This document shows, in pieces, positions 1 to 38,888 of a stretch of 38,888 nucleotides of DNA. Made by a program: the position numbers and the translations under genes. Source of the DNA: a virus. A model generated the notes under the pieces. The model did no database searches. It saw only the letters and a list, made by a program, of their open reading frames with translations, and was not told where the DNA came from. The stretch spans positions 1 to 38,888 of the IMG/VR virus record IMGVR_UViG_3300025873_000010, one strand, 5' to 3'. Every line of letters begins with the position of its first letter. The stretch's first letter is position 1.

Positions 1-619
1 TGTCTCGCAGGGTGATGCCGATGTTAAACTCGGGCAGGGACAGGTATCCCCCGGTTATGCCTTCCTTAAACACGACCATACCAGACCAGACATTGCGGTA
101 GTTACCGGAGTCGAAGTGATACTTGAGCGGGTTGTTCTCGTTAATGATACCGCTGGTAAAGGGAGCGTCATTGACCTTCCAGTCTTGGCCGACCTTCGCT
201 TCAGTCTCTGCCTTGTGCTTGGCATAGAGGTCGGGATTAACCTTCTGATAATTCCTTCCCACCATTGATGCCGCCTTGATTATTATGCTGTTTTGCTTTG
301 GGTAATCGCGGCTAAGTGAGGTTACGCTGCAATAATCCTTGCGTAGAACCTTGCGTGGTTCGTAGCCAAAGACTCGGGAAGTGGTCTTAAGTCCGCCTTG
401 CCTAAAGTTTTTGGTGTACTTGATCGTTTTGCAGGCTAACCGCAACGGTTCAAGGTTGTCCTCGGGCATGACATAGGAGAGGGCAAGCTTACCGTCCTCG
501 TAGAGGTTGAACGGTTCATCAATTAACGTCTCGTAGTCAGCTTCAACAGCATGGCGATGCCTGTACGCCTTGAAATCCAGCTTGCGCCTTGTCCCGTCTA
601 TTCTCATGACAGCAGCCAT
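1..619 (-). CDS. TET/JBP-like base dioxygenase, left-end partial copy (C-terminus cut by contig end)
   Basis: This is the N-terminal 206 codons of the same dioxygenase found complete at 38023-38853; the frame stays open to the contig edge. It contains the HxD iron-ligand pair but ends before the distal His and Arg. It differs from the right copy by about a dozen mostly conservative substitutions (for example Asp-Tyr versus Glu-Phe, Lys versus Thr, Phe versus Leu). The start is either ATG 619, with AAAGG upstream, or ATG 607, which overlaps the kinase stop as ATGA. The gene directly follows the kinase, so it belongs to the modification operon. I infer that this is not a second gene but the same locus read from another strain at the contig junction. 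Confidence 0.75.
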   Translation of the reverse strand, partial: MAAVMRIDGTRRKLDFKAYRHRHAVEADYETLIDEPFNLYEDGKLALSYVMPEDNLEPLRLACKTIKYTKNFRQGGLKTTSRVFGYEPRKVLRKDYCSVTSLSRDYPKQNSIIIKAASMVGRNYQKVNPDLYAKHKAETEAKVGQDWKVNDAPFTSGIINENNPLKYHFDSGNYRNVWSGMVVFKEGITGGYLSLPEFNIGITLRD

Positions 620-654
620 GTTAGCATGACCTTTGCGGCTACCTCGGTTTCATC
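1..654. repeat. Terminal direct repeat, left copy (partner 38235-38888)
   Basis: Bases 1-654 align without gaps to 38235-38888. I count 41 mismatches (about 94% identity). The first 127 and roughly the last 57 positions are identical and the differences lie between. Because the repeat is exactly at both ends, it marks circular permutation or terminal redundancy of a genome of about 38,234 bp. The divergence suggests two co-assembled alleles, not a replicated identical terminus. Confidence 0.9.
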
Positions 655-1149
655 CTCTGCGGCATGGGGCAGGGTGTGGCAGGGAAGGGATGAGTTAAGG
701 ATGTTCTTGATCTTGGTCACTCGCCCCTTGATGAACTTCTCTGATTGGCTGTCTCCGCGCGAGATATGCCGCTCACGGACAGTTTGGTCAGGCACCTTTA
801 GAATCATCACACGAAGGTCAATTCCCTCGTCTGCGGCAACTTCTTCAAGGAAGGATTTGGTGAAGAGCCGGTCACCTTCAAAGACGATCTTGACTCCCCT
901 AACGACCTTGAGATAGCGCAGCATCTTGGGCTGCACAGCCATGGACAGTTTATCGGTGCCAGCAAACAGATCGCCCTCGGCATATTTGCCCAGCACATAG
1001 AGATCGTTCGCCCGGTTGTAATGACCGTGAACCTTGGGGAACATCTCTGCGGGTCGCCACACGGGAAACTGACTCATGAAATGCCTCATCAGCGTGGTCT
1101 TGCCGGTAGCGGGAACGCCCCCTATTGCGAGTAATTTACTTTGTGGCAT
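604..1149 (-). CDS. P-loop kinase, predicted (hydroxymethyl-base) DNA kinase of the hypermodification cassette
   Basis: A 181-residue P-loop NTPase. The Walker A motif GGVPATGKTT begins about ten residues from the N-terminus, a hydrophobic strand VKIVFEGD follows near the middle, and a lid-like basic segment (VRERHISRGD) lies in the second half, as in small nucleotide or nucleic-acid kinases. ATG 1149 is preferred over an upstream TTG at 1167; it overlaps the stop of the PLP/aGPT-PPlase gene by 14 bases, and its own stop makes an ATGA overlap with the dioxygenase. In characterised thymine-hypermodifying phages a P-loop kinase phosphorylates 5-hydroxymethyluracil in DNA to give the substrate of aGPT-PPlase. 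The same role is inferred here from the neighbours; the sequence alone supports only a P-loop kinase. Confidence 0.75.
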   Translation of the reverse strand: MPQSKLLAIGGVPATGKTTLMRHFMSQFPVWRPAEMFPKVHGHYNRANDLYVLGKYAEGDLFAGTDKLSMAVQPKMLRYLKVVRGVKIVFEGDRLFTKSFLEEVAADEGIDLRVMILKVPDQTVRERHISRGDSQSEKFIKGRVTKIKNILNSSLPCHTLPHAAEDETEVAAKVMLTWLLS

Positions 1150-3334
1150 CGTTGTATGAGTTTTCAAAGCAAGGCCAGACGCTATCCATCATGACGGGTT
1201 GCCCGGTGTTGCGATAATGATTCTGCTTGATGGATTTAACCCCCACATCCCTTGGGCAATCCTCTAGTCGCAGACAGGCTGGGAGATATTGCTTACGGGC
1301 ATCCCAAAACAAGCTGAAATCCTCCTTACCATCCCACTTGGCCTCGGCAAGCTTGATGCGGTCATGGAACATATCGTTGTAGACATTGGGATAACGCCGG
1401 TTCTCCCGGTGCCATCCTTTGTATGTACAGAAGGTTGATTCCATCGTGAAGTAGTTCACATCGCGATAGAAATCCTCGTTCCTAAACCTTTCCTTGGCCT
1501 CGGCTAACAGGTCGGCTCCCTCTTTGGTAAGCCAATCCAGCACAGGCTTGTTGTAGCCCTTGAAACTGGAATTGGTTTGCGGGTGCCAATCCATATCCTC
1601 CCGGCCTAGCACATAGCAGAGTCCGTTACGGTGGGACTTGCTTCCCTCCATGTCGTAGAGGAACAGGGAGTCGCAGTTAATTTTAACTCCCATAATCCGC
1701 AGATATTCCAGATAGGAGAACGTGGAGAGTCTCCCGTAGAGGTGAAACCCGTTGATTACCTTGTCCCAAATACTGCGGAAACTCTCTTGCTCGGTTTTGC
1801 CATAGAGGGATGTGAAGAAATCCACTTGGGATGCCCCGTTTAGATTCTTCTGGTAATCCTCGACCATGATGATGAAATCCTTCTTGGAGTAGCGCCTGTC
1901 GGTGTCAAAGGCCAGCTTGGTGTAATTGGCCTCAAACCACTCTTTTAGGTCGGGCAGCTTCAGCTTGGCGAGGTCGGGGAACCGCTTAAAGATGCACCAA
2001 GTGGTGACCGGGTTTTGGCTGCATCCGTTAATGTAGGCGAACCAAAGCTTCTGCTCCATATCCCATCCCTGCTTGTCGGCTAGGTAAGGAAACACATAGT
2101 AAACGGCACCGGGATGCGCCCGGTATTGGAGGTGAAACCCGTAGAACCGGAGGAACACCTCCCGCCGATACTCCTTCTTGCGGAAGTCCATGCCGAAATT
2201 CAGATGCTTCTCCTCCTTTTTGGAGCCGCGCCCCGGCTTAACTGGTGACTTGGGATTTAACATGGTGAGATTGGTGTGGGGAGTAATCTTGGGGAACTCC
2301 CCCAGTTCCTTTTTAGCGTTGGCCATGTGTGCCGCACTCGGCTTGCTGCCGATAATCCAGAACACGGTCGTACTCTTGAGCAGTTCGGGGGCATTCTTAA
2401 CGATGTGATTCATCACCTTCCCCTCGTAAGTGGGGTGGAACGAAATTCCCTTGTAAGAGTACGGGACTGACTTGTGGTAACGAACTAGCCCACGGCCATG
2501 CAAATCATCGTAGTGGAGTGAATACGGGGCGCTACGGGCATTCTGGAAGGACGGTAGGTCGCTCTTGAACTTAGCGTTGAATACGAGGGTGTCAACTCCG
2601 GTTAGTTTACCAATCAAGCGGAGTCGCTCATCCACTAAATCCATCTTGGTTGGGCCAATGCCAATCAGGTAGATGTTCTTCAGCTTGGGCTTGGGATACC
2701 GGGCTAACCCGTAGAGGATACTGGTGCAGCTATTACAACTCCCGGCAGGAATGATGAGAGCGGTAATATCGTCGGGGATATTCCTGACTTGCTCGGAGCC
2801 AAGACGGTGAAACGCCTCCACTTCCTCGGGAGGATGGGTCTTATGGTCGCAAGTAATCCCGTACTCCAGCATGAAGTGGCTGGCGAAGTCTCCCCGGTAA
2901 AGGTCGTTGCACCGCTGTTGAAGCGCCGGGTTGTAGGCGACATTGATGAAGTCAAACTTGGCTCCGAACCAAGCTGCCATCTGCACCATCTCATTGCGGA
3001 TTGCCGCTTGGGGAGTAGTCGCCCCGATGATGAGAACAGAGGGGAGTCCAAAGTGCGTGGCCACCGCTGCTGCCATTGGAAGTTGAGGGGAGAGGACACT
3101 CGCTGCGGAGAGTAAACCGTCCTTGCCTCCCCCTTTGCGGTACTCGCTGGCAAGCCAGATCAGTTGTCGCAACTTGGAACCGTTAATGCCCCCGTAACCC
3201 AAAGGGGCAAAGGCATCGTCCCTCTTGAAGTTCAGCTTACCTACCGCCTGAACCGGGGTAAGCGTGTGGAGATTATTCTCCCACCGGGCCTTTCGACCCA
3301 AGGTCGTTGTCGGGAATATGCTGTCAACTAGCAA
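1136..3334 (-). CDS. Fusion of fold-type II PLP enzyme and aGPT-PPlase (thymine hypermodification) domain
   Basis: About 732 residues in two domains. The N-terminal half resembles ACC deaminase/D-cysteine desulfhydrase: KRDD near the start, GGINGSKLRQ with the presumed PLP-binding lysine, a Gly/Ser phosphate-binding loop (PAGSCNSC), and the family's closing segment GISFHPTYEGKVM. After a Lys/Pro-rich linker (SPVKPGRGSKKEEK) the C-terminal half matches the alpha-glutamyl/putrescinyl-thymine pyrophosphorylase superfamily: RFYGFHLQYRAHPGAVYY, EQKLWFAYINGCSQNPVTTW, and a later DGKEDF. These enzymes displace phosphate from a phosphorylated hydroxymethyl base with an amine or amino acid, and PLP enzymes then tailor the adduct. 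The start is uncertain: the frame is open to 3409, but the only non-ATG starts giving modest overlap with the ParB-like gene are TTG 3334 and TTG 3301. The following kinase overlaps its stop. Confidence 0.82.
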   Translation of the reverse strand: MLVDSIFPTTTLGRKARWENNLHTLTPVQAVGKLNFKRDDAFAPLGYGGINGSKLRQLIWLASEYRKGGGKDGLLSAASVLSPQLPMAAAVATHFGLPSVLIIGATTPQAAIRNEMVQMAAWFGAKFDFINVAYNPALQQRCNDLYRGDFASHFMLEYGITCDHKTHPPEEVEAFHRLGSEQVRNIPDDITALIIPAGSCNSCTSILYGLARYPKPKLKNIYLIGIGPTKMDLVDERLRLIGKLTGVDTLVFNAKFKSDLPSFQNARSAPYSLHYDDLHGRGLVRYHKSVPYSYKGISFHPTYEGKVMNHIVKNAPELLKSTTVFWIIGSKPSAAHMANAKKELGEFPKITPHTNLTMLNPKSPVKPGRGSKKEEKHLNFGMDFRKKEYRREVFLRFYGFHLQYRAHPGAVYYVFPYLADKQGWDMEQKLWFAYINGCSQNPVTTWCIFKRFPDLAKLKLPDLKEWFEANYTKLAFDTDRRYSKKDFIIMVEDYQKNLNGASQVDFFTSLYGKTEQESFRSIWDKVINGFHLYGRLSTFSYLEYLRIMGVKINCDSLFLYDMEGSKSHRNGLCYVLGREDMDWHPQTNSSFKGYNKPVLDWLTKEGADLLAEAKERFRNEDFYRDVNYFTMESTFCTYKGWHRENRRYPNVYNDMFHDRIKLAEAKWDGKEDFSLFWDARKQYLPACLRLEDCPRDVGVKSIKQNHYRNTGQPVMMDSVWPCFENSYNDATK

Positions 3335-3977
3335 CTTTGTAGGCGCGGATAGCTGCGGTAACCGCCTCGGTGTTGGACTCCAACTCGGCCAGATCACGGA
3401 TGCGCCCAATCAACCCCAGCACTTCGTCGTATTCGTCCTCGTCGTAGATGAGGGTTATCTGCCGCAGGGTAGTGTTGTCGTAGATATCCTTCTTGTCCTC
3501 AACGGTTCCCCTTGGGTCGCCGGGGTCATTCGAGTAATCCAGCGGCTTGGTCACATCAAACAATGCTTGAAACTCATCGTCGGTGTAGCCTGACAGCTCT
3601 AGGTCAAAGGAATCGTCCTCCTTGAGCTTTTGAAGTATATCTAGGGTAAGGTCAGCGGCGAGGTTGGAAAGTTCCGCTATGCGGTTGTCAGCGACCAAGT
3701 GGGCGAACTCCTCGGCCTCCGTCTTGAAGTCCTGTTCCTCAATTGGCACCTTGTCGGCATCCAACAGTTTTGCTGCCTCCAGCCTGCCGTGGCCGGCAAC
3801 AATGAAGCCGCTCTTTTTGCTAACCACAATTGGGCTGCGCCAGCCGGTATGCTTTATCACCTTGGCAAGCAGGGCAATCTGCTTGTCGGTGTGCTTGTTT
3901 GGGTTTTGGGGATGGGGAATTAGATTCACCACATCCTCCATCTTGGTGTGGTTGCAGTGGGTCTTGATGTCGCTCAT
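3324..3977 (-). CDS. ParB/Srx-fold nuclease-like protein of the modification cassette
   Basis: 217 residues. The N-terminal part carries the ParB/sulfiredoxin-fold signature: LIPHPQNPNKH, then a helix, SPIVV, and the loop VAGHGRLEAAKLL, followed by EFAHLVADNR. In phages these single-domain ParB proteins usually sit beside DNA methylases or base-modification genes and are thought to target or nick DNA rather than segregate it. The C-terminal 80 residues are acidic (EDDSFDLELSGYTDDEF) and not recognised. ATG 3977 is chosen because it lies one base after the DUF2589 stop; an upstream extension would run into that gene. It overlaps the PLP/aGPT-PPlase start by 11 bases if TTG 3334 is used, which suggests translational coupling. 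Confidence 0.8.
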   Translation of the reverse strand: MSDIKTHCNHTKMEDVVNLIPHPQNPNKHTDKQIALLAKVIKHTGWRSPIVVSKKSGFIVAGHGRLEAAKLLDADKVPIEEQDFKTEAEEFAHLVADNRIAELSNLAADLTLDILQKLKEDDSFDLELSGYTDDEFQALFDVTKPLDYSNDPGDPRGTVEDKKDIYDNTTLRQITLIYDEDEYDEVLGLIGRIRDLAELESNTEAVTAAIRAYKVAS

Positions 3978-3978
3978 C

Positions 3979-4614
3979 TTACTTGGAGCCAGACGGGGCT
4001 GCAGCATCAATCACATTGATTTGCTCTGACAGCATTTGGGTTAGTCTGCCCATTCCTTCGGCGGGGCCGAGGTTCTTGGCTGTGCAGTTTATCGTGTAAC
4101 GGCTGGAGAAATCCGTGGTACGGGTTTGGGTGCTGCTGCTGGTAACCGTCCCGGTGTGGGTGTTGTTATGGCTCCCGCCCACATCAAACGTGACCCCAAA
4201 GAGTTTGCCCCCCGCTGACGCATGAACATCCGTGGTTGAGCCGTCTACCTCAGTATCACCCTTAACTGAAGTGTTGTCGGTGTGAGCCGCAATCTGCATA
4301 TCAAAGAGCACATTGATATCGGTGATGCCCACGTTGGGGATTTGAACCAGCGACAGCACGGGGGTTTGGATGTTTTGGGTAACCATCTTAATCTCGTCAT
4401 CGTCGCCCTTAACAGGTCGTTCAATGTCAACGCTGATGCACCTTGTGGTGGTGTTGCCGTCCTTGTCGGTGTCAAAACCGATTTCATCCACGAAGTTTAG
4501 GGTGGACTTCGCTAGTGCCGTGCCTCCATCGCTCGCCGCCAGTATGGGCGAAAGGATTAAGTCCTTGATGGGAAGCCCCCTCATATCTGCTATTTGTGCG
4601 CTATCTGCTGCCAT
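3979..4614 (-). CDS. DUF2589 family protein, long paralog
   Basis: 211 residues. It shares with the preceding gene the segment PVLSLVQ-PNVGITDINVLFDMQI, typical of DUF2589, a family of unknown function. The N-terminus (LPIKDLILSPILAA, then FVDEIGF) also fits the family pattern of a start region followed by beta strands. The middle is rich in Thr, Ser, Asp and His (residues about 110-165) and looks like an insertion or flexible loop. No signal peptide or membrane segment is seen. It lies between the short paralog and the ParB-like gene, 7 bases from the former and one base from the latter, so it is cotranscribed with the modification genes. Whether it takes part in modification or in the virion is unknown. 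Confidence 0.7.
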   Translation of the reverse strand: MAADSAQIADMRGLPIKDLILSPILAASDGGTALAKSTLNFVDEIGFDTDKDGNTTTRCISVDIERPVKGDDDEIKMVTQNIQTPVLSLVQIPNVGITDINVLFDMQIAAHTDNTSVKGDTEVDGSTTDVHASAGGKLFGVTFDVGGSHNNTHTGTVTSSSTQTRTTDFSSRYTINCTAKNLGPAEGMGRLTQMLSEQINVIDAAAPSGSK

Positions 4615-4621
4615 GATTTTT

Positions 4622-5011
4622 TTATATTGTGGGTATTAGTTTCGTTAGGTTATCACCGATACGAGCCAAGCCTTCTGCCTTTTCCGTGCCGGTAAATTTT
4701 ATCTTAATGTTAGCCATCTTATTGTCCCGTAACTTGCCTAGATCGCCAACGGCTTCCTTATTGTCATGGTCAAGGGCAATTTCAAACTCAATCTCAACCT
4801 CTGAAATCTTCAGGCCATGATGCTGGACAAGAGAGAACAGGGGGATTTCAACCTTCTTCCCTGACAGAACCAAGGTAGCCGTCTTGGGCGCACCCTCCTT
4901 GTCAAAGTAGTCCAGTATTCTGCCCGATAGATGGCTCCCCTCCACATCCTTCTGCGCAGTAACCACTGCAGAATAAAGGCTATTGAATATCTCTTGGACA
5001 GAGGATGCCAT
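4622..5011 (-). CDS. DUF2589 family protein, short paralog
   Basis: 129 residues. The core IPLFSLVQHHGLKISEVEIEFEIAL aligns with PVLSLVQ...ITDINVLFDMQI of the next gene, so the two are tandem paralogs; both end with a conserved-looking segment that names a repeated target phrase (TGTEKAEGLARIGDNLTKLI here, GPAEGMGRLTQMLSEQI there). The N-terminus (SVQEIFNSLYSAVVTAQKDVEGSHL) is probably helical. ATG 5011 is one base from the stop of the F-like head gene, implying coupling. DUF2589 proteins of bacteria are often found in pairs, but their function is not known. Family call is made from motif memory, not from a search. Confidence 0.7.
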   Translation of the reverse strand: MASSVQEIFNSLYSAVVTAQKDVEGSHLSGRILDYFDKEGAPKTATLVLSGKKVEIPLFSLVQHHGLKISEVEIEFEIALDHDNKEAVGDLGKLRDNKMANIKIKFTGTEKAEGLARIGDNLTKLIPTI

Positions 5012-37831: not shown

Positions 37832-38033
37832 GTTTATTTAGTATCCTTTCCAGTTCTGTGTTCATTATCAGGAGTTGTTTGCCTGCTAAAATTGCATTTA
37901 TTTGCCCAAGTTTAACCATCATACGCACCCTGTACTTGGTGATTCCCATTATTTCAGCCACCTCTGGCACAGAGTAAGAAACTTTTTTGTAACCTTGGCG
38001 CAACTTTTCCATTTTTGCGGTGTTAATGAACAT
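37824..38033 (-). CDS. MerR/excisionase-type HTH protein
   Basis: 69 residues from ATG 38033. The core YSVPEVAEIMGITKYRVRMMVKLGQINAILAGKQLLIMNTELERIL is a clear MerR-like/excisionase-family helix-turn-helix with wing. ATG 38033 overlaps the dioxygenase end by 11 bases; a GTG at 38063 would add 10 residues. It could regulate the modification or late operon. No integrase is present, so an excision role is unlikely. Confidence 0.65.
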   Translation of the reverse strand: MFINTAKMEKLRQGYKKVSYSVPEVAEIMGITKYRVRMMVKLGQINAILAGKQLLIMNTELERILNKRG

Positions 38034-38853
38034 CTGCTTTGATTCCAGCCCGTTTTGCTTCACGTTCGGAGCGGATTCTTCTAATTCTTATTATTTCGTC
38101 ATTAAGTGGCAGACACTTCCAGATTCCTTTAAGTGAGTAATAAACGATTGAATACCGCTTGGAATACTCGGACAGCCGTTGGATAGGGGTAACGCCGTGA
38201 AGGATACCTTGGCCATCGAAGTAGAGGATGGACTTGTCTCGCAGGGTGATGCCGATGTTAAACTCGGGCAGGGACAGGTATCCCCCGGTTATGCCTTCCT
38301 TAAACACGACCATACCAGACCAGACATTGCGGTAGTTACCGGAGTCGAAGTGATACTTGAGAGGGTTGTTCTCGTTAATGATACCGCTGGTAAAGGGAGC
38401 GTCGTAAATCTTCCAATCTTCGCCTACCTTCGCTTCAGTCTCTGCCTTGTGCTTGGCATAGAGGTCGGGATTAACCTTCTGATAATTCCTTCCCACCATG
38501 GACGCGGCCTTGACGATAATGCTGTTTTGCTTGGGGAACTCGCGGCTAAGTGAGGTTACGCTGCAATAATCCTTGCGTAGTACCTTGCGTGGTTCGTAGC
38601 CAAAGACTCGGGAAGTGGTCTTGAGTCCTCCCTGTCTGAAATTGGTGGTGTACTTGATCGTCTTGCAAGCTAACCGCAACGGTTCAAGGTTGTCCTCGGG
38701 GATGACATAGGAGAGGGCAAGCTTACCGTCCTCGTAGAGGCTGAACGGTTCGTCGATTAGCGTCTCGTAGTCGGCTTCAACGGCATGACGATTCTTGTAC
38801 GCCTTGAGGTCGAGCTTGCGCCTTGTCCCGTCTATTCTCATGACAGCAGCCAT
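38023..38853 (-). CDS. TET/JBP-like 2-oxoglutarate/Fe(II) DNA base dioxygenase
   Basis: 276 residues. The double-stranded beta-helix signature is visible: HFD (H168, D170), followed by SGNYRNVWSGMVVFKEG, GGYLSLPEFN near 190-199, FDGQGILHGVTPI with distal H219, and RYSIVYYS with R233 for the 2-oxoglutarate carboxylate. The GG-L-LPE and HGVTPI segments are characteristic of the TET/JBP branch, which oxidises the methyl group of 5-methylcytosine or thymine in DNA. It would supply the hydroxymethyl base for the kinase and aGPT-PPlase. Its start (ATG 38853 or ATG 38841, the latter overlapping the kinase stop as ATGA) lies in the terminal repeat. Substrate base is not decided by the sequence. Confidence 0.82.
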   Translation of the reverse strand: MAAVMRIDGTRRKLDLKAYKNRHAVEADYETLIDEPFSLYEDGKLALSYVIPEDNLEPLRLACKTIKYTTNFRQGGLKTTSRVFGYEPRKVLRKDYCSVTSLSREFPKQNSIIVKAASMVGRNYQKVNPDLYAKHKAETEAKVGEDWKIYDAPFTSGIINENNPLKYHFDSGNYRNVWSGMVVFKEGITGGYLSLPEFNIGITLRDKSILYFDGQGILHGVTPIQRLSEYSKRYSIVYYSLKGIWKCLPLNDEIIRIRRIRSEREAKRAGIKADVH

Positions 38854-38888
38854 GTTAGCATGACCTTTGCGGCTACCTCGGTTTCATC
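38235..38888. repeat. Terminal direct repeat, right copy (partner 1-654)
   Basis: Second copy of the end repeat, with the same length and no gaps relative to 1-654. It contains most of the dioxygenase gene and the last codons of the kinase, so joining the ends restores the operon order. Confidence 0.9.
38838..38888 (-). CDS. P-loop kinase, right-end fragment (C-terminal 16 codons and stop)
   Basis: These bases are identical to 604-654, the end of the kinase gene, and are cut by the contig edge. They show that the gene upstream of the dioxygenase is the kinase in both end copies, which supports a circular genome. Confidence 0.8.
   Translation of the reverse strand, partial: DETEVAAKVMLTWLLS

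Follow-up and report, generated by a model that had tools for sequence, protein, structure and literature searches.

The window, by which we mean the whole stretch of DNA that was analysed, is a single virus record of 38,888 bases (IMG/VR record IMGVR_UViG_3300025873_000010) that carries a four-gene cassette predicted to hypermodify DNA. As terminase, Mu-type portal and capsid-type genes are present together with genes for RecT and a PD-(D/E)XK nuclease, the window comes from a tailed phage. Positions 1-654 recur at 38235-38888 with 41 mismatches (94% identical) and the contig is thus a circular or terminally redundant phage genome of approximately 38.2 kb, closed over variable reads, with the mismatches between the end copies probably arising from strain variation within the sample. 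The cassette forms a minus-strand operon upstream of a helix-turn-helix (HTH) gene and the small and large terminase genes, and its genes are ordered as follows: a ParB-like protein (3324-3977), a fusion of a pyridoxal-phosphate (PLP) enzyme and an amino acid:DNA transferase (ADDT; 1136-3334), a P-loop kinase (604-1149), and, across the contig junction, a TET/JBP dioxygenase. A preliminary description, made from the letters of the DNA, had reported four adjacent, overlapping minus-strand genes that continue across this junction; all four are present and have profile matches, and the 654-bp end overlap accounts for the continuity. The dioxygenase is complete only at 38023-38841 (open reading frame to 38853), and the second copy at 2-607 (open reading frame to 619) is cut by the contig start. 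Start codons were chosen from homologue ends and junction sequences, which gave likely starts at ATG 3977 for the ParB-like gene, TTG near 3334 for the fusion (where homologues suggest it, although the open reading frame reaches 3409), ATG near 1149 for the kinase, and ATG 38841 for the dioxygenase. Neighbouring genes overlap at their junctions by a few to about 14 bases, as is typical of translationally coupled genes.

The window oxygenase matches the Pfam profile Tet_JBP (PF12851; 2.4e-12, 46.8 bits, over the cut-off of 34.9). The HxD...H...R pattern that had been read from its sequence is borne out, as H167, D169, H218, and R232 (numbering of alignment A4) are invariant across 32 homologues and correspond to the HxD...H iron triad and the 2-oxoglutarate arginine. 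When the PDB was searched with a profile of 32 phage TET homologues, human TET2 matched at 3.4e-9 and Naegleria Tet1 gave a weaker match; the iron ligands of the phage enzymes and their arginine for 2-oxoglutarate align with those of TET2. The broad TET alignment contained no conserved stretch for a family-level search. RefSeq and PHROGs (phrog_6059) label mycobacteriophage TET/JBP proteins, such as that at L041:776-1744, as 'queuine tRNA-ribosyltransferase'; their Pfam match is Tet_JBP.

The kinase, predicted to act on 5-hydroxymethylpyrimidines in DNA, matches PF18751 (Ploopntkinase3; 3.7e-10, over the cut-off) and has the Walker A motif GGVPATGKTT, while PF18748, the profile of the HMUDK family to which the 5-hydroxymethyl-deoxyuridine (5hmdU) DNA kinases of phages ViI and M6 belong, found no match in the window. 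The Walker A kinase first noted at this locus is thus a Ploopntkinase3 and not an HMUDK protein. The label 'terminase small subunit' is carried by gp3 of Nigel, gp5 of Acadian, gp54 of M6, and PHROG 800, all of which match kinases of DNA bases (Ploopntkinase3 or HMUDK). On these proteins (L041:1786-2379, L083:3022-3585, and L161:41685-42245; window counterpart 604-1167) the label appears from the profile matches to be a propagated misannotation. A further HMUDK match, in record L039 (contig positions 5043-5525), is interrupted by one in-frame TAG, possibly a recoded stop.

The operon opens with the gene for a ParB-like protein that matches phrog_620 (7e-31) and the ParB-methyltransferase family phrog_498 (2.6e-34) and has an orthologue in the sister phage L005 described below. 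The ParB fold originally proposed for it stands on these matches, though its score against PF02195 (ParB_N; 9e-5, 22.9 bits) falls under the cut-off of 26.3. With this protein as query no relatives were found among viral contigs, and PADLOC detected no defence system in the window except a ParB-type methyltransferase match of the same protein. According to a recent survey, phage proteins with the ParB fold bind a variety of nucleotides, and many of them are fusions with predicted DNA methyltransferases (PMC12704722). We also considered that it might supply the PLP enzyme by acting as a serine kinase, in the way that SbnI does for SbnA, and rejected this since ParB-like genes also accompany glycosyltransferase cassettes that lack a PLP enzyme.

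In the fusion protein, the ADDT domain (1148-2200) matches PF18724 (1.3e-17, 64.7 bits, over the cut-off of 26.2). Its AlphaFold2 (AF2) model has a pLDDT of 92.7, and the top structural match is the solved structure of PUGT (8z2m; Z 17.3 over 258 residues, 3.6 A), the 5-phosphomethyl-deoxyuridine (5-PmdU) glycinyltransferase of phage PaMx11, followed by DUF2419 (queuine salvage, Z 10.0) and 8-oxoguanine DNA glycosylases; the window ADDT and PUGT do not match at the sequence level. The PLP domain (2282-3325) scores 20.9 bits against PALP (PF00291), under the cut-off of 35, and strongly against phrog_3650 (4e-110). Its AF2 model (pLDDT 84) matches D-cysteine desulfhydrase in Foldseek (E 8e-12, probability 1.00) as well as 1-aminocyclopropane-1-carboxylate (ACC) deaminase (E about 1e-11), and Lys79, in the motif NGSK, is invariant and aligned with a lysine of ACC deaminase, so that the model confirms a PLP domain of fold type II. 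The two domains were modelled separately because the PLP rows were placed wrongly when fusion proteins were aligned jointly with PLP-only and ADDT-only ones. The preliminary description had named a PLP/aGPT-PPlase fusion and had staked its case on profile matches to aGPT-PPlase and TET/JBP domains; PF18724 and PF12851 both match, and 'aGPT-PPlase' is more exactly the ADDT ('clade 2') family.

IMG/VR was scanned with the fusion as query, which yielded 35 loci. Most of these have TET, PLP, ADDT, and kinase genes adjacent but in varying order, either unfused or fused in other combinations, including ADDT-kinase fusions in L026, L027, L028, and L031; the full PLP-ADDT fusion was found only in the window, where it would pass the intermediate on directly. 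The sister phage L005, whose TET is 78% identical and whose ParB, HTH, terminase, and portal genes are collinear with those of the window, has in place of the PLP-ADDT-kinase block between ParB and TET a single 267-residue protein whose score passes the family cut-off for TET-Associated Glycosyltransferase. The same exchange is found in the Nigel/Acadian group of mycobacteriophages, and the TET tree (61 rows) requires at least eight changes between ADDT and glycosyltransferase. What TET makes must thus accept either a sugar or a phosphate followed by an aminoacyl group, and a hydroxymethyl base in DNA is such a product. The PLP type of the window occurs in 16 TET loci, all 16 with ADDT, and in 0 of 28 glycosyltransferase loci.

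Other arrangements were seen among the related loci. In Acadian (L083:1707-3585) the TET gene and a TET-associated glycosyltransferase gene are followed by one for a deacetylase of PIG-L type and one for Ploopntkinase3, a gene content that suggests an amino-sugar on the base. Nigel (L041:776-2379) has ParB, TET, and kinase genes with no adjoining ADDT or glycosyltransferase, and its base might keep the phosphate or be tailored by enzymes encoded at another place. TET, ADDT, and kinase genes also lie at L023:6548-9670 on a 305-kb contig of jumbo size; no TET/JBP was reported among the 224 jumbo phages surveyed in 2021 (PMC7824862).

Taken together, these analyses suggest a pathway by which the four-gene cassette probably hypermodifies thymine in DNA after replication. 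The TET/JBP enzyme would use Fe(II) and 2-oxoglutarate to hydroxylate the methyl group of thymine in DNA, giving 5-hydroxymethyluracil (5hmU), which the P-loop kinase would convert to 5-phosphomethyluracil. In the ADDT domain an amino acid would then displace the phosphate to form an aminoacyl-thymine, and the fused PLP domain would modify this amino acid on the DNA, most likely decarboxylating it as has been proposed for its ViI relative, which would leave an aminoalkyl group with a positive charge, for example 2-aminoethoxymethyl. The ParB-like protein may serve as a DNA-binding or targeting helper. By analogy with related phages, the modification may disguise the DNA from bacterial defences such as restriction. 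Decarboxylation by PLP enzymes in such pathways was reportedly described by Lee et al. in 2021.

The ADDT and PLP steps are modelled on the pathway of Salmonella phage ViI, whose ADDT (profile 2e-54, 28% identical) and PLP enzyme (profile 1e-119, 43% identical) resemble those of the window. ViI differs in that its PLP enzyme is not fused to ADDT and in having a thymidylate-synthase-type hydroxymethylase adjoining HMUDK where the window has TET/JBP and Ploopntkinase3. The ViI base is 5-(2-aminoethoxy)methyl-deoxyuridine, made through a 5hmdU DNA kinase (PMC6449724). Of the scheme first proposed for the cassette, namely oxidation, phosphorylation, amination, and tailoring on polymerised DNA, the pathway fits all of the evidence, and 'aminate' should be replaced by amino-acid transfer. 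The accompanying idea that the base is one not yet described has lost ground, since the PLP and ADDT parts are related to ViI enzymes whose base is known and the product may therefore be a known one; that it is the ViI base itself is a tentative guess by analogy, which we would not bet on.

One step admits a different reading, in which the PLP domain makes or deaminates a free amino acid as donor for ADDT rather than acting on a DNA-bound one, with the remainder of the pathway unchanged. The closest solved folds, D-cysteine desulfhydrase and ACC deaminase, are enzymes of free amino acids, and fold type II is not usual for decarboxylases. We nevertheless regard this as rather unlikely, given the 43% identity to a ViI protein whose final group is in effect a decarboxylated serine, and given that a DNA-bound substrate suits both the fusion with the transferase and the presence of ADDT wherever this PLP type occurs in TET loci. 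That the cassette is decaying or inactive is very improbable: although 41 of 654 bases differ between the end copies, every frame is open, and the oxygenase protein is more than 90% conserved among the two end copies and L003 with all catalytic residues kept.

The identity of the oxidised base bears on the whole pathway, as the same steps could run on cytosine, with TET oxidising host-made 5-methylcytosine (5mC) and the kinase and ADDT then building an aminated cytosine. TET enzymes of this family do occur beside cytosine methyltransferases. In Methylophilales phage Melnitz, TET directly follows an HhaI-like C5-methyltransferase, where the search with the C5-methyltransferase profile PF00145 was positive, and a methyltransferase homologue lies beside 67 Melnitz-clade TETs, none of which has ADDT or PLP. 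In contrast, PF00145 is absent from the window and was found in 0 of 40 records, in 2 of 26 (both glycosyltransferase-type contigs with partial matches), and in 1 of 15, the Melnitz control; nor does a C5-cytosine methyltransferase occur in any of about 30 phages with TET and ADDT, including the complete CaiB, MO526, and Tonitrus genomes. As no C5-methyltransferase occurs with the TET type of the window, thymine itself is the most likely substrate, which sharpens the earlier proposal of a TET enzyme acting on a methyl base by setting aside a methylated base made by a partner.

Two further lines of evidence concern how the hydroxymethyl base arises and how it is bound. ViI and M6 combine a thymidylate-synthase-type hydroxymethylase with HMUDK, ADDT, and a PLP enzyme; the corresponding profile PF00303 is present in both and absent from the window, and phages with TET and ADDT carry Ploopntkinase3 and not HMUDK. 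A thymidylate-synthase-type enzyme was found in 6 of 40 records and TET in 26, with no overlap; these counts are not independent, since the contigs behind the co-occurrence figures are in many cases incomplete and related to one another. No Salmonella or Pseudomonas phage was among the organisms that a TET search of cultured phages named. At the TET position aligned with H1904 of TET2, a residue that we take to contact the target base, Asp is present in 25 of 26 methyltransferase-linked TETs, versus Leu (22), Arg (18), Ile (1), and His (1) in 42 ADDT- or glycosyltransferase-linked TETs. The absence of a methyltransferase, the split between two routes, and the pocket residue together favour thymine over 5mC, and the relatives of ADDT and PLP in ViI and M6, as well as PUGT, work in thymidine pathways; we therefore consider the cytosine version distinctly unlikely.

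Several points weigh against the proposed pathway. Because the methyltransferase-linked TETs form a single clade, and so represent one change on the tree, linkage and pocket residue are confounded with descent. Caulobacter phage Cr30 has TET together with a thymidylate synthase that scores as canonical (373 bits versus 54-66 for ViI and M6), and in the ADDT- and PLP-containing contigs L017 and L029 (27 kb and 155 kb) neither TET nor a thymidylate-synthase-type enzyme was found. Some Ploopntkinase3 genes, as in Acadian, adjoin glycosyltransferases, so this kinase need not serve ADDT, and a host methyltransferase could supply 5mC. As far as we know, 5mC is the base oxidised by those phage TETs that have been assayed to date; Burke et al. 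reportedly described this in 2021 for phage TETs with partner methyltransferases. On balance, we lean towards the window oxygenase being a dioxygenase of thymine and, in prokaryotes, the counterpart of the JBP of kinetoplastids, with exchangeable tailoring blocks that would give amino-acid-derived thymines here, perhaps an undescribed base, and a phage analogue of base J in L005.

The kinetoplastid pathway to base J (JBP and a glucosyltransferase) shares with the cassette the oxidation of thymine in DNA as the predicted entry, and with L005 a TET-associated glycosyltransferase; it differs in that the window has kinase, ADDT, and PLP in place of a sugar, and in that thymine activity of the phage enzyme is a prediction. 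Thymine oxidation in DNA by the TET/JBP family is, as far as we know, shown only for kinetoplastid JBP. Such phage TET/JBP systems were reportedly predicted by Iyer et al. in 2013. Among cultured phages, Rhodococcus phage Tonitrus and Gordonia phage CaiB likewise have ParB, TET, ADDT, and Ploopntkinase3 in one operon beside terminase, but with no adjoining PLP enzyme of the window type and no fusion; Tonitrus gene 8 has no Pfam match, and oxidoreductases are encoded by CaiB gene 5 and the corresponding gene of the Microbacterium phage MO526. A 2025 announcement described the ParB-TET-aGPT-Pplase2-kinase set of Tonitrus, without tests, as a putative thymine hypermodification system (PMC11955845).

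Outside the cassette, two neighbouring DUF2589 genes (3979-5011) lie directly upstream of the operon, and L005 has no such pair upstream of ParB. The nearest relative of the window terminase is in an Alteromonadaceae phage (41%), and a host search in bacterial genomes gave as its sole match a 3.8-kb contig of an Actinomycetes metagenome-assembled genome.

The families themselves are already named in Pfam, and a similar gene set is known from Tonitrus. New, to the best of our knowledge, are the PLP-ADDT fusion, the exchange of tailoring blocks in a sister phage, the comparison of TET and Ploopntkinase3 with hydroxymethylase and HMUDK, and the contrast in the pocket residue. From the comparison, a large group of TET/JBP enzymes in phages is predicted to act on thymine; it names both the enzymes and the pocket residue, and suggests that an oxygenase and kinase can replace a hydroxymethylase and kinase upstream of common tailoring enzymes. 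If true, this would link base J to phage DNA modification and provide a route to amine groups on the thymines of finished DNA.

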